Shown piece after piece: positions 4,051-48,495 of a stretch of 64,000 nt of DNA (position 1 is the first letter of the stretch; each line of letters opens with the position of its first letter). The notes under the pieces are model-generated. The model was not told the origin of the DNA and searched no databases. It worked only from the letters and a program-made list of their open reading frames with translations. Origin of the DNA: Planktomarina temperata RCA23 (GTDB lineage: Bacteria; Pseudomonadota; Alphaproteobacteria; Rhodobacterales; Rhodobacteraceae); NCBI RefSeq assembly GCF_000738435.1, contig NZ_CP003984.1:496001-560000 (forward strand). Direction: 5' to 3'. The position numbers and the translations under genes are program-made.

Positions 4051-4100
4051 CTCAGCAGATGGGACACCCTTCCCCAACGAAGGGCGCATATCTGAGAGGA
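4051..4100 (+). promoter_or_regulatory. Probable serC leader RNA (hairpin next to the serC ribosome site)
   Basis: The inner stem CCCTTC (4067-4072) pairs with GAAGGG (4079-4084). An outer stem CTCAG (4051-4055) pairs with CTGAG (4092-4096), and the outer strand runs straight into the serC ribosome site GAGAGGA (4094-4100). A structured serC leader motif has been described upstream of serC-serA in alphaproteobacteria. Position and shape fit that motif, but I matched it from memory of its location, not by alignment. Folding would occlude the ribosome site, so it may control serC translation in cis. Confidence 0.55.
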
Positions 4101-4108
4101 TAGCATTG

Positions 4109-20225: not shown

Positions 20226-21557
20226 TTAGAGCTCCGCTCCGGCGGTCCACTCGCCCCATTTCATCAGCGCATTGGCCCCAAGCCAGGCCAAAGGCGGCGG
20301 GGGCAGGCGGCGCGGGGCGGCTTGCTCTTGGACCTGTTGCAACAGTGGGCTGTCATGCCCACTGGCCAGGTCCGCGGCCAGCATGCCATGCAATGTGCCC
20401 TTGGCCGTTCCCAAACCGTTTTGGCAGCAGGCCGAATAGAGCCCCGGCATGACCTCACCAAACGCGGCGACATTATTGCGCGAAAGACACAGGCGCCCGC
20501 CCCAGCGATATTGCATGGATACATGGCGCAGCGCGGGAAAACGGGCGGAAAAACTTGCGTCATGACTGCGCGACACAGCGCGAATGCGCCGCTCAGAGAC
20601 CTGCATGGACGGATCGAAAGTGGCGCGATTTCGGATGATGATGCGGTCGCCGCCCATCCCAGATATGCGCCGCACGGTTGTTCCTAAAGGGTCGGCGGGT
20701 GTGGCGCCCCAATTGCGCGCCCCGCCCAAGGTTTTCACCTCTTGAGCGGTCAAGGCGCGGGTCATGCTGGCATAGGTGAACACATGAATAAGTTGTTGCG
20801 GGTAAAGCCCGAAGGAATTGGCGTGGCCATTGACGGCCAGAATAACCCGCGGCGCTGTTACCTGGCCCGATGGGGTGGTGGCTGACCAGTCACCATTGTG
20901 GTCAAGCGCTGTCACGGGCGAATTTTCGAGAATCAGAGCATGATGTGATGCCAAGCCGCGGGCAATGCCGCGGATATACATGGCCGGTTGCAGCATGACC
21001 GTGCCGGGGGTGAAGAGGCCAGATTGATAATAGCCGGTTCCGGTCAATTCCGCCATTTGCGCCGCATCATACATCTCCCAAGGCTCGCCCATCCGGGTCA
21101 AATGGCGGGCATAGTCTTGATTGTGGCGATGACCCTTTGCGCTGGCAGCCGCATTGAACTTGCCGCAAGGGTTAAACGCTTCGTAGGGCAGCTCAAATTC
21201 CTCGGCCATCTGGCGGGCGAAAGCAATTGCGGCGCGATTGGCTGCGATCTGGCGCCGGTCTTCGTTAAGCGCGCCGCCGTAATCCTCTGACGCCAGATCA
21301 TGGGGCAGATCAATCATAAACCCCGAATTGCGCCCGGCAGGGCCATCGGCAATCCGGCTGGCCTCAAGCAGAATGATTTTATCTGCCGGGTGCAGCTGCT
21401 TGAGCCGCGCCAGTGCCGCCAGGCCAGCAAAGCCGCCGCCAATCACCAACCAATCGGCGGTGTGCCTGCCTTCCAGCCTTTGGGCCGCTGCGGCGGGCGG
21501 CAGAAGATCCGCCCAAGCGGCCGGGCCGGGATCTATGGGCAGGCGCGAGACTTTCAT
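20226..21557 (-). CDS. FAD-dependent amine oxidase of the DAO superfamily (PuuB-like)
   Basis: A 443-aa flavoprotein with an N-terminal ADP-binding fold (DWLVIGGGFAGLAALARL, then the acidic residue in LLEASRIADGPAGRNSG). The GRNSG motif and overall layout resemble gamma-glutamylputrescine oxidase and related secondary-amine oxidases, which yield an aldehyde, an amine and H2O2 or a reduced acceptor. It starts at the ATG at 21557, 2 nt after the stop of the MttB-family gene, so it is the last gene of the catabolic operon. The likely role is to oxidise an N-methylated or N-substituted amino acid produced by its neighbours; the actual substrate is not known. Confidence 0.82.
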   Translation of the reverse strand: MKVSRLPIDPGPAAWADLLPPAAAAQRLEGRHTADWLVIGGGFAGLAALARLKQLHPADKIILLEASRIADGPAGRNSGFMIDLPHDLASEDYGGALNEDRRQIAANRAAIAFARQMAEEFELPYEAFNPCGKFNAAASAKGHRHNQDYARHLTRMGEPWEMYDAAQMAELTGTGYYQSGLFTPGTVMLQPAMYIRGIARGLASHHALILENSPVTALDHNGDWSATTPSGQVTAPRVILAVNGHANSFGLYPQQLIHVFTYASMTRALTAQEVKTLGGARNWGATPADPLGTTVRRISGMGGDRIIIRNRATFDPSMQVSERRIRAVSRSHDASFSARFPALRHVSMQYRWGGRLCLSRNNVAAFGEVMPGLYSACCQNGLGTAKGTLHGMLAADLASGHDSPLLQQVQEQAAPRRLPPPPLAWLGANALMKWGEWTAGAEL

Positions 21558-21559
21558 GG

Positions 21560-23110
21560 TCAATACTCTTGGTTCAGCGCGTCGGCAGCCGGGATCTCCC
21601 GCTCACGCCGCGCGATATAGTCGCCTAGGGCTTCATCAATGCCAGGATCCAATTTTGGTTCCTCATATTCGTCGAGCATCTGACGCGCGCGTATCAACCC
21701 GCGGGTGTTTGTGTCCAGAGCGCCATCCGCCTGCCATTGTTCAATCGAATTATTGTCAAACATCTCTGGCATGAAAAAGGCGCGTTGGAAATTTTCAAGC
21801 GTATGGGAATGGCCAAGGTAATGCCCGCCCGGCCCAATGTCGCGCACCGCCTGCATGGCTGCATCAAAATCATCCCAGCGTATGCCCTCGGCCATACGAT
21901 AGCCCATGGCGCAAAGCTCCGCGTCCACCACGAATTTTGACATCGAGCAATGCATACCGGCTTCGTTCCATCCGGCGCTGTGCCAGATGTAATTCGCCCC
22001 GGCCATGAGCACGGCATTCAAGGTCATGGCACTTTCATATCCCGCCTGCGCGTCAAGGGTTTTCGCCCCGCCCAAAGTATTTGAAGTCCGCCAGGGTACG
22101 TTATAGTGGCGCGCCATTTGGCCAATCATGAAATTCATCAAACTGATTTCTGGCGTGCCGGCCATAGGGGCGCCGGATCGCATACTGACGGTGGCCAAAT
22201 AATGGCCATAGATCGCAGGCATGCCTTTGCGGACAACCTGCGTATAGGCCAGACAGCTGAGGGCTTCGGCATTGAGCTGCGCCACGGTTGGGGCGACGGA
22301 TGCGGGTGTATTGGCGCCGCCCAGAACAAAGGGGCTGCATAGGATGGGTTGGTTGTATTTGGCAAAGGCCCGCAGCGCGCCCAGCATTGTTTCATCCCAA
22401 ACCAGCGGGCTGTTTCCATTGCAATTTCCTGTGACGACCGGATGGCTTTGCATATAATCCGCACCAAAGAGCAGGACACACATCTCCATGACATCCTCGG
22501 CATTTTTGGGACTGGTGGTCATGCCCATGAAGGTCTTGTCGGAATGTTTCATCGACGAATAGGTAATGCGCAAATGCCTTTGGCTGATCGGGTGATCATA
22601 GGGTTCTACAATGTGGTGAGCGGAAGAGTGCATCGCGGGCAGCATATGAGATAACTTGTGAAAATTTGCCAAGTCTTCCAGGGTTGGATTGCGCCTGGTA
22701 TCTTCGAGGTCTCGCAGATAGGGCGCGCCGGTCATCGGCACAAAGATGGAGTGATCGTGACCGAACGGCAGGTTATTGGCGGGGTTTCGCGCGTGGTAGG
22801 TGAAGCTTGAGGGGATGGAGGAGATCAGCTCACGCACAAGACCGCGGTCCAAATGCACCCGGTCGCCATCGCGAATATCGGCCCCCGCGGCACGCCAATC
22901 TGCAATGGCGATGGGGTCGCGAAACACCACTCCGACATCCTCAAGCACGCTCATTGAGGCCGCATCGATCTTCTCGATCTGGTCTTGATCCATGGGTTCG
23001 GTCAAGGGCAGGCGGCGTTTCAGCGCGGGCAACATCGTAACATCGCGGGTTTGTCTTATGGTTTTTCGCGCGCCGCGGCCGCGCCGCGTGGTGCCAACGG
23101 CATCAGCCAT
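21560..23110 (-). CDS. Trimethylamine methyltransferase (MttB) family protein, non-pyrrolysine
   Basis: A 516-aa TIM-barrel methyltransferase of the MttB superfamily. The frame is uninterrupted, with no internal amber codon, so it belongs to the non-Pyl group that includes glycine betaine methyltransferase MtgB, which transfers a methyl group from a quaternary amine to a corrinoid protein. Supporting segments are HARNPANNLPFGHD, VPMTGAPYLRDLEDTRR and the C-terminal DIGPGGHYLGHSHTLENFQR, characteristic of the family. GAGGAGG precedes the ATG. No corrinoid-binding protein or reactivase lies nearby. The ALDH gene precedes it by 41 nt and the amine oxidase follows at 2 nt. Confidence 0.88.
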   Translation of the reverse strand: MADAVGTTRRGRGARKTIRQTRDVTMLPALKRRLPLTEPMDQDQIEKIDAASMSVLEDVGVVFRDPIAIADWRAAGADIRDGDRVHLDRGLVRELISSIPSSFTYHARNPANNLPFGHDHSIFVPMTGAPYLRDLEDTRRNPTLEDLANFHKLSHMLPAMHSSAHHIVEPYDHPISQRHLRITYSSMKHSDKTFMGMTTSPKNAEDVMEMCVLLFGADYMQSHPVVTGNCNGNSPLVWDETMLGALRAFAKYNQPILCSPFVLGGANTPASVAPTVAQLNAEALSCLAYTQVVRKGMPAIYGHYLATVSMRSGAPMAGTPEISLMNFMIGQMARHYNVPWRTSNTLGGAKTLDAQAGYESAMTLNAVLMAGANYIWHSAGWNEAGMHCSMSKFVVDAELCAMGYRMAEGIRWDDFDAAMQAVRDIGPGGHYLGHSHTLENFQRAFFMPEMFDNNSIEQWQADGALDTNTRGLIRARQMLDEYEEPKLDPGIDEALGDYIARREREIPAADALNQEY

Positions 23111-23151
23111 GAGTGTTCCTCCTCTTTGGCAAGACTTGCGGCCCGTTCCCG

Positions 23152-24642
23152 TTACCCGACATTGTCGCCATCGGCTGGATCGGTGAGATCAATCCAAATG
23201 GTTTTGATTTCGGTGAATTGGTCATGGGCATGAATACCATTTTCGCGCCCGCCGAAGCCCGATTGTTTATAACCGCCAAAGGGCGTGGCGATGGACCCTT
23301 CGCCATAGGTGTTGACGGTCACGGTTCCGGCCTTGATGTCGCGGGCAGCGCGAATGGCGTTGCGGGTATTGGCGGTGAAGACGGAGGCGGCCAAGCCGTA
23401 GTTGGTGTCATTGGCCAGCGCAATGGCCTCATCATTGCTGGCCACGGTGAGCACGCTCAAGATTGGTCCAAAAATTTCATCAATGGCTTTGGCATCTTTT
23501 GGGCTGATCTCGTAAATTGTTGGCTGCACAAAGGGCCCCTCTGCCGTGCCACCAGCCAATGCGGTCCCTGTCAGATAGCTGGCCACTTTGGCGCAATGCT
23601 CTGCATCAATAAGCGCGCCCAGGTGATGAGCGGGGTTGAGCGGATCGCCTGTTTTCCAATCTCGCAACCGCGCCAAGATCCGCTCCAAGAGGGGCTCTTT
23701 CACGGCGTGATGGACAATCAGACGCGAGGCGGCGGAACAATTCTCTCCCATGTTCCAAAAGGCAGCATTGACCACATGACTGGCCACTGCATCGAGATTT
23801 TCAGCATCATCAAACACCACGCAGGGGTTTTTGCCGCCACATTCCAGCACAACTTTCTTTAAATTGCTGTCAGCGGCGTAGCGCAGGAAATGCCGCCCGG
23901 TCTCGGTCGAGCCTGTGAAACTGACCATATCCACATCCATGTGAAGCCCAAGCGGCGCGCCGACAGTCGGCCCATCACCGGGCAAGACCTGCAAGACCCC
24001 GCGGGGCAGGCCGGCCTCTGCGGCCAATTCGGCCAAGCGCAAGGCGGTGAGGCTGGTTTGCTCCGCGGGCTTTACGATGACAGAATTGCCCGCAGCCAAA
24101 GCGGGCCCGATTTTCCACGCCATCATGAGCAGTGGGAAGTTCCAGGGCAAAATAGCGGCGACGACACCAATGGGTTCGCGCAGGATCATGGCGATGGCAT
24201 CCTCTTGCGCCGGGGCCATTTGGTCATAAATTTTATCGATCAACTCCGCGTGCCATTTCAAGGTTTCGATGGTCTCGGGAATGTCGATGGTTTCGCAATC
24301 TAAGATCGGCTTGCCGCTGTCGAGACTTTCCATCACCGCCAATTCCCGGCGGTTGCGTGTGATCAACTTGCACAGGCGGACCAGCACCTCTTTGCGTTGC
24401 GATGGTGCGCGTTTGGCCCAATGGCCTTGATCGAAGGCCTCGCGGGCTCTGGACACTGCCAGATCCACATCGGTCGCATCACAGCCGGAAATTTCGGCCA
24501 GCGGCAGCCCGGTGGCAGGGTTGAAAGTGGTAAAAGCGGCGCCATGGCCGGCGCGGTATTTGCCGTCAATAAAAGCGGTGCGCGGGAGGTCGAGATCTGC
24601 GGCCAGCGCCTTATACTCTGCGGTTGTTAGTAAGTCGCTCAT
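23152..24642 (-). CDS. NAD(P)-dependent aldehyde dehydrogenase (PuuC/betaine-aldehyde type)
   Basis: A 496-aa aldehyde dehydrogenase. Catalytic residues are the Glu in LECGGKNP and the Cys in NMGENCSAASR; the nucleotide-binding GSTETGR and the oxyanion Asn in ILPWNFPL are also present. The sequence most resembles gamma-glutamyl-gamma-aminobutyraldehyde and betaine-aldehyde dehydrogenases. Its ATG overlaps the stop of the DapA-family gene (ATGA), so the two are translationally coupled. It probably oxidises a semialdehyde formed by the DapA-family lyase or the downstream amine oxidase. Confidence 0.88.
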   Translation of the reverse strand: MSDLLTTAEYKALAADLDLPRTAFIDGKYRAGHGAAFTTFNPATGLPLAEISGCDATDVDLAVSRAREAFDQGHWAKRAPSQRKEVLVRLCKLITRNRRELAVMESLDSGKPILDCETIDIPETIETLKWHAELIDKIYDQMAPAQEDAIAMILREPIGVVAAILPWNFPLLMMAWKIGPALAAGNSVIVKPAEQTSLTALRLAELAAEAGLPRGVLQVLPGDGPTVGAPLGLHMDVDMVSFTGSTETGRHFLRYAADSNLKKVVLECGGKNPCVVFDDAENLDAVASHVVNAAFWNMGENCSAASRLIVHHAVKEPLLERILARLRDWKTGDPLNPAHHLGALIDAEHCAKVASYLTGTALAGGTAEGPFVQPTIYEISPKDAKAIDEIFGPILSVLTVASNDEAIALANDTNYGLAASVFTANTRNAIRAARDIKAGTVTVNTYGEGSIATPFGGYKQSGFGGRENGIHAHDQFTEIKTIWIDLTDPADGDNVG

Positions 24643-25547
24643 GCGCCTTCTCCCATGATATGTGCAATGGCGATGTCCATCGTTGCGATGACCTCAGCCA
24701 GTTGGCGTTTGTCGTCTTTGTTGAGCGGTTGCAGCGGCTTGCGGGGCGGGCCTGCGTCAATGCCGCGTAGGGTCAGGCCGTATTTGATACATTGAACAAA
24801 TTTCCCACCCTGCTCGAGCACCCGCATCAAGGGCAGCATGGCCGACATGATCGCGCGCCCTTTGGTGAAATTTCCCTCCACAGCGCAGCTTTGGTACAGA
24901 GCAATATGCGCCTCGGGGGCAAAATTGGACCCGGCGCAGACCCAGCTGCGCGCGCCCCAGGCGAAGAATTCCAACGCCTGATCATCCATGCCGCAAGACA
25001 GGGCAATATGCGGATAATCGCGGGCCAGCATATGCAGCCGATTGGGATCGCCCGAGCTTTCCTTAATGGCGCAGAAATTTGGGCTGCGGCCCAGACGGTC
25101 GAGGGTCTCCTCATCCATATTGACGCACATACGGCCGGGATAATTGTAGAGCATGGCCGGCAGATCTGCCGCGCGGTCGATCGCCAAAGCATGCAGGGCA
25201 ATCTCGCGACCTGTCGGATAGGCATAGGGCGGGGTGGCAATCAAAAGCGCATCTGCACCCGCTTTTTTGGCCGCCTTGGCATAGAGAATTGAATCCTCCG
25301 TACGAATAGCGCCCGTGCCCACAATCATCGGCCGCCTTCCGGCAATGATTTCATGCGCAACAGACATCATTTCAACCCGCTCATCGGTGCTCTGAGCGTA
25401 ATACTCGCCGGTTGTGCCCGCGATAATCAAACCATGAACTCCAGCCTCGATCAGACGGTTGATCGTGGCCTCCAATGCATCCTGATTTAACGAAAAATCA
25501 TTGTGATAAGGGGTGATCACGGGGGTATAGATGCCTTCAAATTGCAT
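24639..25547 (-). CDS. DapA/N-acetylneuraminate lyase family aldolase or deaminase
   Basis: A 302-aa class I aldolase-type TIM barrel. The Schiff-base lysine Lys162 is in CAIKESSGD, the catalytic Tyr136 in YNYPG, and the carboxylate-binding loop is GTTGE (residues 44-48). The start at 25547 is preceded by AAGGAG and overlaps the last 11 nt of the GntR gene. Because true lysine biosynthesis genes are not nearby and the neighbours are catabolic, it is more likely a lyase or a deaminase, as in hydroxyproline catabolism where a DapA homologue makes 2-oxoglutarate semialdehyde, than dihydrodipicolinate synthase. The substrate is not determined. Confidence 0.85.
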   Translation of the reverse strand: MQFEGIYTPVITPYHNDFSLNQDALEATINRLIEAGVHGLIIAGTTGEYYAQSTDERVEMMSVAHEIIAGRRPMIVGTGAIRTEDSILYAKAAKKAGADALLIATPPYAYPTGREIALHALAIDRAADLPAMLYNYPGRMCVNMDEETLDRLGRSPNFCAIKESSGDPNRLHMLARDYPHIALSCGMDDQALEFFAWGARSWVCAGSNFAPEAHIALYQSCAVEGNFTKGRAIMSAMLPLMRVLEQGGKFVQCIKYGLTLRGIDAGPPRKPLQPLNKDDKRQLAEVIATMDIAIAHIMGEGA

Positions 25548-26241
25548 TGGCTGTCTCCTTCGGGCTGGCCAGTTCAACGGGCAATGGATCAGGGCGCACG
25601 AAACGCTCCATGCGGTCTTGCGACAGGGCCCAATGCTGCAAAGTCAGATCAACTGCGCCCTCTGCATGCCGGTTTTCAATGACGGCGATCATCTGGTCAT
25701 GTTGTTCGCAGGCCTGTCTGACCAGCGCGCTTTCAGCCGGTGACGCGGGTCGATAGAAGGTTTGGCTCAGGCGCGTATGATCAATGAGCATGCGCTGGAG
25801 GCTTGGGATCAAGTAGCAATTTTGCGACATATCCCCAATGATGTGATGAAATTGATGATTGTACATCGCCGCTTGTGCAGGCTCATTGTTGAGGGTGGCC
25901 TTTTTAAAGTGTTGCTGGCTGACTTTAAGCGCCTTCAGCTGTGGCAGGCTACGATTTTCACAGGCAAGACGCGCGATATTGGCATAGATCAGTGGCGCCG
26001 TTTGAAAAAAACTGCGCATCACGGCCATGTCCATCGAGACGACCTTTGCCCCCTTATTTTGGGTGATATCGACAAAGCCTTCTCCCGCGAGTTTTTGCAA
26101 AACTTCGCGCAGTGGGGTGCGTGACATGCCAAATTCTGCACCGAGTTTGGCCTCGTCCAAATCACTGCCCGGTGGCAGCGCGAGCGAAAGGATTTGGTGA
26201 CGGATCGCGCCCAGACATTGAGATTTGCGGCTAGTCGTCAT
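25537..26241 (-). CDS. GntR family (FCD-type) transcriptional regulator
   Basis: A 234-aa regulator starting at MTTSRKSQCLGAIRHQIL (ATG at 26241, AAGGAG upstream). The N-terminal winged helix-turn-helix has LPPGSDLDEAKLGAEFGMSR then TPLREVLQKL. The C-terminal all-helical FCD domain contains the metal-binding His/Asp pattern (in YNHQFHHIIG and EQHDQMIAV). It is the first gene of the amine-catabolic operon, and its 3' end overlaps the dapA-like start. It presumably represses the operon through the palindrome at 26260-26282 and responds to the pathway substrate or an intermediate. Confidence 0.9.
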   Translation of the reverse strand: MTTSRKSQCLGAIRHQILSLALPPGSDLDEAKLGAEFGMSRTPLREVLQKLAGEGFVDITQNKGAKVVSMDMAVMRSFFQTAPLIYANIARLACENRSLPQLKALKVSQQHFKKATLNNEPAQAAMYNHQFHHIIGDMSQNCYLIPSLQRMLIDHTRLSQTFYRPASPAESALVRQACEQHDQMIAVIENRHAEGAVDLTLQHWALSQDRMERFVRPDPLPVELASPKETANAI

Positions 26242-26259
26242 AGGGTCTCCTTGCCTTAT

Positions 26260-26282
26260 ATTGTATACATATTGCATACAAT
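26260..26282. promoter_or_regulatory. Probable GntR operator upstream of the amine-catabolic operon
   Basis: ATTGTATAC (26260-26268) and GCATACAAT (26274-26282) form an inverted repeat with 8 of 9 matches around a 5-nt centre. This is the usual form of operators bound by FCD-type GntR regulators (TTGTAT...ATACAA). It lies 19 nt upstream of the gntR start, so autoregulation is likely. Confidence 0.7.
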
Positions 26283-26332
26283 AATTTTACAAAGACGACC
26301 CTAGAGAGGTCTATCTGCGACAGAATGGGCCG

Positions 26333-27118
26333 TTAGGCCAATGTTCTGCCATAAAATCCGAGATGCTCTTGCTCTGAGAATCGCCGGCCGGGGGTTTCGT
26401 AATAGGTTAAAACCGCATTGATTCTCGGCCGGTCTCCCTCCACCGGCGTGACCCGGTGCGCGGTATTCACGCCGCGAAACACGTTCAAGGTTCCGGCGTC
26501 TTGCGGGCAAATCTGCGTCTGGCGCTTGCCCATCAAAAGCTCTGCCACCCCGGCATAGTTGGGATCCTCTGCGGTGCGCAGATCGCGCAGATACTCGAAC
26601 TCTCCGCCGGCCTTTGGGGCTTGTAGAAGCAGCGTTGTGGTAAATTCTGAGCGGTCAAAATGCCAATTCAGCGCCTCGCCATGGTAATAGGTCATGACAT
26701 TGGCCCCGGCGATTCGATCATCCATTGTGTAAAGCGCGGGCTTATTCATGACATGGGCCAAAAAACTGGCAAAAGCAGGCCAGTCATAAAGCCGGGTTAT
26801 GGGGCTGCCCTCAATTTGATCGGCACAAATTGTATGATTGATCGTTTGCAGCTCTTGCAAGGCTGGATGACCGGGCGCGAGGCCGGGAATCTCTTTTTTG
26901 AAATAGATGTTATGGGCCCGCTTATGCACAAAAGCATCTCGCGCGATGACTGGTTTGACCCAATCGAGCGTGCGTTCTATGGCCTCGGGGCGTAGGAAGC
27001 CAGGCAAGTTGAAAAGTCCTTGAGTGTCAAGATCGGCCTGGCATCGCGCACAAAGCGCGCGGAACTCGGCACTGTCAGGTTGGTCAATCGGGTAGCGGTC
27101 GGTGTCAATAATATCCAT
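26333..27118 (-). CDS. 2-Oxoglutarate/Fe(II)-dependent dioxygenase, probable hydroxylase
   Basis: A 261-aa non-haem iron dioxygenase. The facial triad is His153 and Asp155 in NWHFDRSEF and His221 in NTAHRVTP; Arg232 in RPRINAVLTYY would bind 2-oxoglutarate. The general layout, including ANVMTYYHGEALNWHFD, resembles the HalD/BesD-type amino-acid-modifying enzymes, but the HxD motif (not HxG) predicts hydroxylation rather than halogenation. It lies upstream of gntR on the same strand, with the operator between them, so it may be part of the same regulon. The substrate is unknown; a free or N-methylated amino acid is plausible from context. Confidence 0.8.
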   Translation of the reverse strand: MDIIDTDRYPIDQPDSAEFRALCARCQADLDTQGLFNLPGFLRPEAIERTLDWVKPVIARDAFVHKRAHNIYFKKEIPGLAPGHPALQELQTINHTICADQIEGSPITRLYDWPAFASFLAHVMNKPALYTMDDRIAGANVMTYYHGEALNWHFDRSEFTTTLLLQAPKAGGEFEYLRDLRTAEDPNYAGVAELLMGKRQTQICPQDAGTLNVFRGVNTAHRVTPVEGDRPRINAVLTYYETPGRRFSEQEHLGFYGRTLA

Positions 27119-48141: not shown

Positions 48142-48155
48142 GGGTTATTGGTCTT

Positions 48156-48309
48156 GCAGGCCGGTCTCCTGGCTGGCGGCATGATGATCTGTCTCCTTCC
48201 CGGTTTCCCAGTGGTATATGACAGACCCAAACCGCTTACAGTCGCGGGGGCGGCTTTGGTTTTGGGTCCCGATATGGGTCACCCGCACCAAATTCCCGTT
48301 TCAGTTCCG
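48156..48309 (-). ncRNA. Cobalamin riboswitch upstream of cbtB-cbtA
   Basis: Read on the minus strand it contains, in order, AACGGGAATTTGGTGCGG, GCCCCCGCGACTGTAAGCGG, CCACTGGGAAACCGGGAAGG, and the B12 box AGCCAGGAGACCGGCC. These are the conserved core elements of the adenosylcobalamin-type riboswitch in the expected order and spacing. It lies about 48 nt upstream of the cbtB start, so cobalamin should lower expression of the cobalt transporter. Confidence 0.96.
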
Positions 48310-48495
48310 AATGCTTTGCATCCAATGAACACCTTACAGGAACATCTGTGGCTTGCTTGATGGGAGTCGTCAAGATCGTTTGCGACCTCACAGCGCAGAG
48401 TATCGGCATTTGTGATTTTGGCCGGGGTTTCATCAGGTGGGTTTTCATTTTGGTTGGACTGTTCCATTGTCGGCGGAAGATTGGAAGAGGTGGGA
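48310..48495. promoter_or_regulatory. Divergent promoter region, cbtB riboswitch / MauG-like gene
   Basis: 186 nt between the riboswitch aptamer and the divergent dihaem gene. It must carry both promoters. I could not identify confident -35/-10 pairs, and I see no coding sequence. Confidence 0.4.

Follow-up and report, generated by a model that had tools for sequence, protein, structure and literature searches.

The window analysed here, a stretch of 64,000 nucleotides from the 3.29-Mb single-contig genome of Planktomarina temperata RCA23 (NZ_CP003984.1, positions 496,001 to 560,000), carries on its minus strand, read from window position 27118 to 20226, genes coding for a 2-oxoglutarate (2OG)/Fe(II) oxygenase, a GntR/FCD regulator, a DapA-family lyase, an aldehyde dehydrogenase (ALDH), an MttB-superfamily methyltransferase and an FAD amine oxidase of the DAO family. 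Judging from the sequences and their neighbourhoods, the operon is rather likely to serve the breakdown of a cyclic proline-type betaine, with 4-hydroxyproline betaine as the leading candidate; in this route the MttB protein would perform a B12-dependent demethylation. The gene set, its order, linkage and co-occurrence are observed, and every chemical step is one that we infer.

MttB orthologues with 73–85% identity are found in at least 75 of 295 genomes of the family (the window genome counted in), followed by a gap down to 47%. Seventy-three stretches from these genomes and the best 80 contigs of another collection, in which the MttB protein is up to 99% identical to its relatives and the closest named ones are mostly Planktomarina records, gave 94 distinct MttB loci after deduplication. 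DapA, ALDH and DAO genes all lie within 9 kb of MttB in 55 of the 63 loci with at least 7 kb on each side of it, the 31 shorter-flanked loci being excluded from this count, and all three are on the MttB strand within 6 kb at 67 of the 94. Twenty-one regions were opened in annotated records, 11 with DapA only, four others and six with an MttB orthologue, and DapA-ALDH-DAO is present in all six of the latter (L202, L203, L204, L232, L233, L234; L and G numbers are our handles for loci and genomes). No DapA orthologue was found at the 21 control loci of MttB paralogues (42–47% identity, some with short flanks), nor at the six paralogue loci of the own genome. The linkage of MttB with DapA-ALDH-DAO is far above chance. 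The preliminary description of this stretch had named neighbourhood analysis as a check and scattering of the genes without linkage as the adverse outcome; instead, the GntR/DapA/ALDH/MttB/DAO set is kept together in relatives.

The class-wide search with DapA matched 19 of 385 genomes, too few for statistics; the 20 regions retrieved comprise 19 DapA loci and one MttB-paralogue locus (L254), and an MttB orthologue is also present at five of the 19 (L235, L236, L244, L246, L247). ALDH orthologues with 58–78% identity adjoin DapA in 17 plasmid loci. Additional genes in the 94 MttB loci code for short-chain dehydrogenases/reductases (SDRs; 34–35), P5CR-like proteins (15; in some relatives within the gap between ALDH and MttB), enolase-superfamily proteins (11), cytochromes P450 (10), GlxA-type regulators (5) and OYE-type flavoenzymes (4), with GNAT and VOC genes also among the varying ones, and one group of loci has MttB on the strand opposite the module.

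The enolase-superfamily gene at 11 of the 94 loci is HpbD-like. Its copy at L182 scores 502 bits to structures 4e8g, 4izg and 4j1o and 412 bits to 2pmq and 4h2h, which we take to be the hydroxyproline-betaine epimerases of Paracoccus denitrificans and Pelagibaca bermudensis, and 226 bits to the next one, 4mgg. Annotated hpbD genes of P. pantotrophus are 77–78% identical to the HpbD-like copy of C. sphaeroides, and against the NCBIfam model for cis-3-hydroxy-L-proline dehydratase only 263 of 500 bits are reached. HpbD is present in three of the six annotated MttB-orthologue regions (L202, L232, L233). Plasmid pB of C. sphaeroides has the arrangement MttB-HpbD-SDR-SDR / DAO-ALDH-DapA-GntR / ProV-ProW-ProX-GlxA, ProV-ProW-ProX genes adjoin the module in Phaeobacter inhibens M633, and a Mesorhizobium locus reads DapA-ALDH-DAO-LysR-MttB-HpbD-GlxA. 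No Rieske oxygenase was detected at any of the 94 loci with two queries (at least 45% identity, within 9 kb of MttB); the whole own genome was not searched for a Rieske demethylase.

A DapA orthologue without MttB is found at 11 plasmid loci (L227, L228, L230, L231 and L255–L261, with L260 cut by the record end). Genes annotated as 4-hydroxyproline epimerase are present at four of them (L255, L256, L257, L259), glycine betaine/proline ABC transporter genes at eight, two proline-racemase-family genes at L230 and an HpbD-like gene at L228. The GntR-DapA-ALDH-DAO set beside an annotated 4-hydroxyproline epimerase gene and without MttB occurs in R. leguminosarum, A. tumefaciens, A. vitis and P. 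methylovorus. In R. leguminosarum WSM1325 the four genes keep the order they have in the operon, and GntR, DapA, ALDH and DAO are 41, 61, 63 and 53% identical to those of the operon; unlike in the window, there is no MttB gene in the rhizobial stretch, and ProXVWW and the epimerase follow the module. In Rhizobium Kim5 (L231) the module is located beside genes for a Rieske oxygenase and its reductase, electron transfer flavoprotein (ETF) and formaldehyde genes; L231 is the only one of the 11 loci with a match to the Rieske oxygenase, and the reductase is matched at L230 and L231. L262 (DapA match 44%) is an unannotated record in which BLAST shows DAO, ALDH and ProV/W, and a Rieske match of 57% lies close to the DAO and ALDH genes. 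HpbD without the module occurs at L229, L263 and L264. The last of these, in Aminobacter aminovorans pAA02 (L264:5803-13993), has genes for an MttB protein (52%), an ABC binding protein, a B12-binding protein, HpbD, an FAD oxidoreductase and a P5CR-like protein in one row, which is possibly a self-contained proline-betaine demethylase set.

At the genome level, HpbD is present in 16 of the 295 genomes (E ≤ 1e-100), and 15 of these 16, all except G117, have an MttB orthologue (Fisher p 5e-9; the p values given here ignore relatedness of genomes). Close 4-hydroxyproline epimerase (4HypE) homologues, with at least 53% identity, occur in 21 genomes, only one of which has an MttB orthologue (Fisher p 0.02), while a further 25 genomes have remote matches only. 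The P. temperata genome itself possesses an HpbD-like gene at 2,863,032, with 63% identity to the C. sphaeroides copy and 549 bits to 4e8g vs 236 to 4mgg. The HpbD structures, unlike 4mgg, retain the Trp of the GVW(L/V)A motif, presumably the cation-pi residue. No match to the proline racemase family (PF05544; 4HypE) was found in the own genome, and the OYE-type flavoenzyme of L182 has a best own-genome match of only 31%. The own HpbD-like gene stands beside zinc-type dehydrogenase and TRAP-transporter genes (L205:4084-15957, G000:C1:2854000-2873900), with fatty-acid-desaturase-like, ketopantoate-hydroxymethyltransferase-like (Pfam) and Rieske-ferredoxin-like (by eye) genes nearby.

The MttB gene is an uninterrupted 516-aa frame with no in-frame amber codon, and the model for pyrrolysine-containing MttB, TIGR02369, is matched at 285 bits, far under its cut-off of 525, so the protein is a non-pyrrolysine homologue, as the preliminary description had it. 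Matches in the Protein Data Bank (PDB) include 4yyc (E 2e-147) and the glycine betaine methyltransferase 9yce (E 8e-108). The MttB family includes glycine betaine, proline betaine, carnitine and gamma-butyrobetaine enzymes, as stated in the accessible part of PMC8604678, and we propose the operon protein as a (hydroxy)proline-betaine:corrinoid methyltransferase. Four MttB paralogues with 42–44% identity, in different genomes (G125:C6, G265:C5, G103:C7, G026:C33), have one in-frame TGA each.

Seven MttB-family genes are present in the own genome. One of the paralogues (L116, G000:C1:2159300-2179200; 39% identity) adjoins dimethylglycine dehydrogenase (DMGDH)/sarcosine-oxidase-like and gcvT, gcvH and gcvP-like genes (by eye) and is probably this genome's enzyme for glycine betaine. 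B12-binding_2 is matched twice in the genome, once in a protein whose best NCBIfam match is MtgC (190 of 370 bits, under cut-off). The MtgC-like gene adjoins a gene for a homocysteine methyltransferase which reaches the cut-off of the model ‘betaine--homocysteine S-methyltransferase’, as MtgE does by homology, and there is a single RACo match, to a RamA-like protein. These corrinoid parts fit the shared-corrinoid system of Ruegeria pomeroyi, and a pairing of MttB with the MtgC-like protein is predicted. In R. pomeroyi, MtgBCD/E is a glycine betaine demethylase with a split methionine synthase, and marine bacteria with this system often have up to seven pfam06253 genes, for which the available text suggests diverse methylated compounds (PMC12478193, from 2025). 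P. temperata resembles it in having an MttB-type protein, a stand-alone MtgC-like corrinoid protein, a RamA-like protein and several MttB paralogues in an aerobic roseobacter; the R. pomeroyi work differs in that it shows glycine betaine only, the substrates of the other pfam06253 proteins being left open in the same portion of that paper.

The motifs TGExYA, YNYPxR and KESSG of the DapA protein do not vary among 14 homologues, taken from contexts with and without MttB, four of them beside annotated 4-hydroxyproline epimerase. The protein is proposed to be a pyrroline-4-hydroxy-2-carboxylate deaminase and the ALDH a 2-oxoglutarate semialdehyde dehydrogenase. According to its AlphaFold2 (AF2) model (mean pLDDT 87.4), the oxidase has the fold of an amine or amino acid oxidase, the best folds being glycine oxidase, the beta subunit of heterotetrameric sarcosine oxidase, L-proline dehydrogenase 1y56, D-arginine dehydrogenase and DMGDH, at 13–18% identity; (N-methyl-)cis-4-hydroxy-D-proline is its proposed substrate. 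The families of the DHDPS-type lyase, ALDH and D-amino acid oxidase (DAAO)-type oxidase are co-operonic and their orthologues adjoin 4-hydroxyproline epimerase genes, the activities themselves being predicted.

A hydroxyproline-betaine pathway was reportedly described by Zhao in 2013 and by Kumar in 2014. Its last steps are performed by members of the DAAO, DHDPS and ALDH families, as given in the accessible text of PMC4113996. The operon agrees with it in these three families at the last three steps, in the HpbD-like gene, which the own genome has and which is linked to the operon in some relatives, and in ProVWX in some relatives; it differs in having an MttB-type corrinoid methyltransferase where the known pathway has a Rieske enzyme, and in the own genome lacking a proline-racemase-type 4HypE and having nothing closer to the OYE-type flavoenzyme than the match mentioned above. 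Another comparable system is that of MtpB, which in Eubacterium limosum is said to be the methyltransferase for proline betaine (Picking, 2019). It too is an MttB protein without pyrrolysine that works on a betaine of the proline type together with a corrinoid protein; unlike the present one it comes from a gut acetogen, and it is compared here by description only. We know of no DapA/ALDH module with MtpB.

The proposed route would start with HpbD, encoded at its distant locus, inverting C2 to give cis-4-hydroxy-D-proline betaine. MttB would then take off one N-methyl and hand it to the cob(I)alamin carried by the shared MtgC-like protein, kept active by the RamA-like protein, a step suggested by the MttB family and by the R. 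pomeroyi MtgBCD system, and the methyl group may pass from the corrinoid to tetrahydrofolate or homocysteine. The DAO-type flavoenzyme may oxidise the N-methyl amino acid either at a ring carbon or at the methyl; the DapA-like lyase would open and deaminate 4-hydroxy-pyrroline carboxylate to 2-oxoglutarate semialdehyde, and ALDH would oxidise the latter to 2-oxoglutarate, these two steps being suggested because orthologues are encoded beside 4-hydroxyproline epimerase. The preliminary description had also suggested betaine demethylation, with a proline- or hydroxyproline-betaine as the example, amine oxidation and entry into central metabolism through the lyase and the dehydrogenase; this outline is well supported by the HpbD, ProVWX and 4-hydroxyproline epimerase neighbourhoods and qualified by the number of genomes without HpbD given below, and its oxidation of a secondary amine does not hold, as one MttB turn leaves a tertiary amine.

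A further and rather doubtful refinement is that MttB removes one methyl only, that the oxidase acts on the ring of N-methyl-cis-4-hydroxy-D-proline, and that the lyase releases methylamine, not ammonia, together with 2-oxoglutarate semialdehyde. It is favoured by the missing 4HypE, by the OYE-type match of only 31% and by MtyB, a member of the MttB family with no detectable activity on its own tertiary-amine product, though less than 1% on a secondary amine, according to the available part of PMC8604678. If true, hydroxyproline betaine would yield a B12-bound methyl, methylamine and a carbon skeleton for central metabolism, with neither a second demethylase nor formaldehyde involved.

The six genes named in the preliminary description are all confirmed by Pfam matches (Table 1). 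Starts at ATG 26241 for GntR and ATG 25547 for DapA are preferred because of ribosome-binding-site-like sequence and the starts in relatives, and with them the two genes overlap by 11 bp. DapA shares 4 bp with ALDH, a gap of 41 bp separates ALDH from MttB, and MttB and the oxidase gene abut. The operon is tightly packed, but its genes do not overlap throughout, in contrast to the preliminary description. No tRNA was found in the window by ARAGORN; elsewhere in it there are a cobalamin riboswitch (48143-48351, minus strand, 98.4 bits) and a serC leader (4057-4108, plus strand, 65.3 bits).

Table 1 Features of the operon and its upstream region (window coordinates)
Feature	Position	Strand	Supporting matches and remarks
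FAD-dependent amine/amino acid oxidase (DAO family)	20226..21563	-	PF01266, 132 bits; likely start ATG 21557
Non-pyrrolysine MttB-superfamily methyltransferase	21560..23110	-	PF06253, full length (profile 2-500 of 500), 704.6 bits vs cut-off 25
Aldehyde dehydrogenase	23152..24642	-	PF00171, 514 bits
DapA/DHDPS-family lyase	24639..25577	-	PF00701, 206.7 bits; likely start ATG 25547
GntR/FCD regulator	25537..26277	-	PF00392 and PF07729; likely start ATG 26241 behind AAGGAG
Two operator-like palindromes	26261..26281		One mismatch each to TTGTATACAA; between 2OG gene and GntR
2OG/Fe(II) oxygenase, HxD...H triad	26333..27118	-	PF23169 (HalD), 37.6 bits, above cut-off; PF13640 below cut-off

The palindrome TTGTATACAA is found with at most two mismatches in 71 of 90 GntR upstream regions (near-duplicates included), with about seven expected from mononucleotide shuffles. 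Taken by itself, the pair of palindromes in the window is unremarkable, as 0.62 are expected and 12 of 100 shuffles contain at least two. It is this conservation upstream of GntR from which control of the operon by GntR through the palindromes, as putative operators, is suggested. The pattern WTGTATRCAW has 20 strand-wise matches in the genome vs 9 for the reversed control pattern. Three TTGTATACAA-like palindromes are located at G000:C1:894070-895119 (L310-L312) around another GntR gene adjoining a GcvT-like gene, and the own distant HpbD locus has no exact palindrome site and two weak matches vs 5.06 expected. A wider GntR regulon was dropped, as the three sites near 894-895 kb lie at the other GntR gene.

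Several observations weigh against the proline-type betaine module. HpbD does not reach the threshold in 60 of the 75 MttB-positive genomes, so it is no obligatory partner, and lineages may differ in stereochemistry or substrate; in contig coordinates, about 2.3 Mb separate the own HpbD gene and the operon. Part of the module is missing at eight of the 63 well-flanked loci (L102, L104, L105, L107, L108, L178, L184, L199), and module and MttB are apart in two genomes, G055 (L241, L107) and G210 (L242, L074). The paralogue loci L265 and L266 have the order MttB (45–47%)-SDR-SDR-DAO (38–39%)-ALDH (52–53%) and no DapA orthologue, suggesting that parts of the gene set also serve something else. DapA and DAO are under every NCBIfam equivalog cut-off, and ALDH is under cut-off in all 25 NCBIfam models among the matches listed. 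Among the eight window proteins scanned there is no part of ProVWX, the only transporter gene there being of the MFS type, and the characterised proline-betaine enzyme, MtpB, is that of an anaerobe and can be set beside the operon MttB by description only. Finally, in the Leisingera plasmid loci L233 and L234, which are not among the 94, a ring-hydroxylating dioxygenase is annotated at a distance of about 9 kb from MttB. It is under threshold for the Rieske queries, and coexistence of MttB with a Rieske-type gene is thus possible. Strict mutual exclusion of the two was considered and is undercut by this coexistence and by the Rieske match being restricted to L231 among the DapA-only loci; the swap of MttB for a Rieske demethylase, as read from the gene neighbourhoods, rests on few loci.

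The same 60 genomes without HpbD would suit the degradation of some other amine, quaternary or N-methylated, such as another cyclic betaine (a pipecolate betaine) or a compound of the carnitine type, with DapA and ALDH handling a homologous hydroxy-imino acid. The accessory genes varying between MttB loci (SDR pair, P5CR-like, P450, GNAT, VOC) and the substrate range of the MttB family speak in the same direction, and the NCBIfam model nearest to the DAO protein is L-pipecolate oxidase, although at 115 of 600 bits, far under cut-off. We regard this as somewhat unlikely, since the substrate-informative neighbours, where present, are mostly hydroxyproline ones (4-hydroxyproline epimerase, HpbD, ProVWX) and the DapA motifs are identical in both groups.

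The facial triad of the 2OG/Fe(II) enzyme, H153, D155 and H221, is invariant in six aligned sequences and matches the HxD...H motif noted in the preliminary description. In 2OG halogenases of the HalD/BesD type, HxG or HxA replaces HxD; this signature is not present, H153-F-D155 being found instead, and HalB (7u6i) is weakly related (E 2e-4), so by its motif the enzyme has the pattern of a hydroxylase rather than a halogenase. The gene is located between leuB and the operon in L122, L123, L124, L126 and the same-genus L285, on the strand of the operon, with an EamA gene intervening in L285 and another gene in L126. Homologues (E ≤ 1e-15) occur in 83 of the 295 genomes; among 20 loci fetched, only L285 has the module, the other 19 being without its GntR and DapA, and four of these 19 (L300, L286, L293, L301) have other MttB-family genes near the homologue. 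L300 also has a Rieske oxygenase and an OYE-type flavoenzyme, and L286 an M24 peptidase and a desaturase-like gene.

It is conceivable, if rather unlikely, that this enzyme hydroxylates proline betaine and thereby gives entry to the hydroxyproline branch. Its same-strand position upstream of the operon in the five loci just named, the Planktomarina metagenome-assembled genome L124:6585-8478, with no GntR gene detected and the 2OG gene immediately before DapA, the four MttB-neighbouring homologues with the Rieske oxygenase of L300, and a P450 in a comparable place in some relatives all favour it. They are opposed by the conserved GntR palindromes that separate the gene from the operon in the window, by L125, where the operon is present and the 2OG gene missing, by the 19 of 20 loci without the module, the exception being of the same genus, by the close succession of leuB and the 2OG gene, and by the failed AF2 model (mean pLDDT 53.6, poor). 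A role as a core operon member is likewise weakened by the operator position, L125 and the differing neighbours elsewhere, with L124 speaking for it. The enzyme is probably accessory and not a core member; its place just upstream of the operon is as the preliminary description had it.

Another reading takes the module to serve free hydroxyproline, D-configured or otherwise supplied, with MttB as an unrelated passenger for another betaine. GntR-DapA-ALDH-DAO without MttB beside 4-hydroxyproline epimerase is what would be expected of it, as are MttB on the opposite strand in one locus group and its separation from the module in G055 and G210. It is nevertheless quite improbable given the one-strand arrangement within 6 kb at 67 of 94 loci, the tendency of MttB orthologues and close 4HypE to avoid each other (one of 21 4HypE genomes) and the absence of any proline racemase family member from the own genome. 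That the operon MttB is a further MtgB demethylating glycine betaine, as its match to 9yce might suggest, is very improbable, since another protein, 4yyc, matches more closely, the L116 paralogue already stands in the expected glycine betaine context and a DapA-type lyase has no evident role for that substrate.

No published description of a GntR-DapA-ALDH-MttB-DAO operon and no paper combining hydroxyproline betaine with MttB was found among titles and abstract starts of mostly open-access literature, nor was a comparable gene set found there for homarine, another marine betaine. The preliminary description, which knew of no characterised pathway with this exact combination, agrees with the literature searched, except that in its logic the route varies the hydroxyproline-betaine pathway already known. 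A paper on the metabolomics of marine plankton mentions hydroxyproline betaine (PMC11965087). The operon gives one of up to seven marine MttB-type proteins a specific, testable substrate class and a complete proposed downstream route. If the proposal is true, a non-homologous demethylase would be at work in a pathway that is conserved in its other steps, the methyl group would be retained on the corrinoid and not end as formaldehyde, and B12-dependent demethylation in aerobic seawater would extend from glycine betaine to a cyclic betaine.

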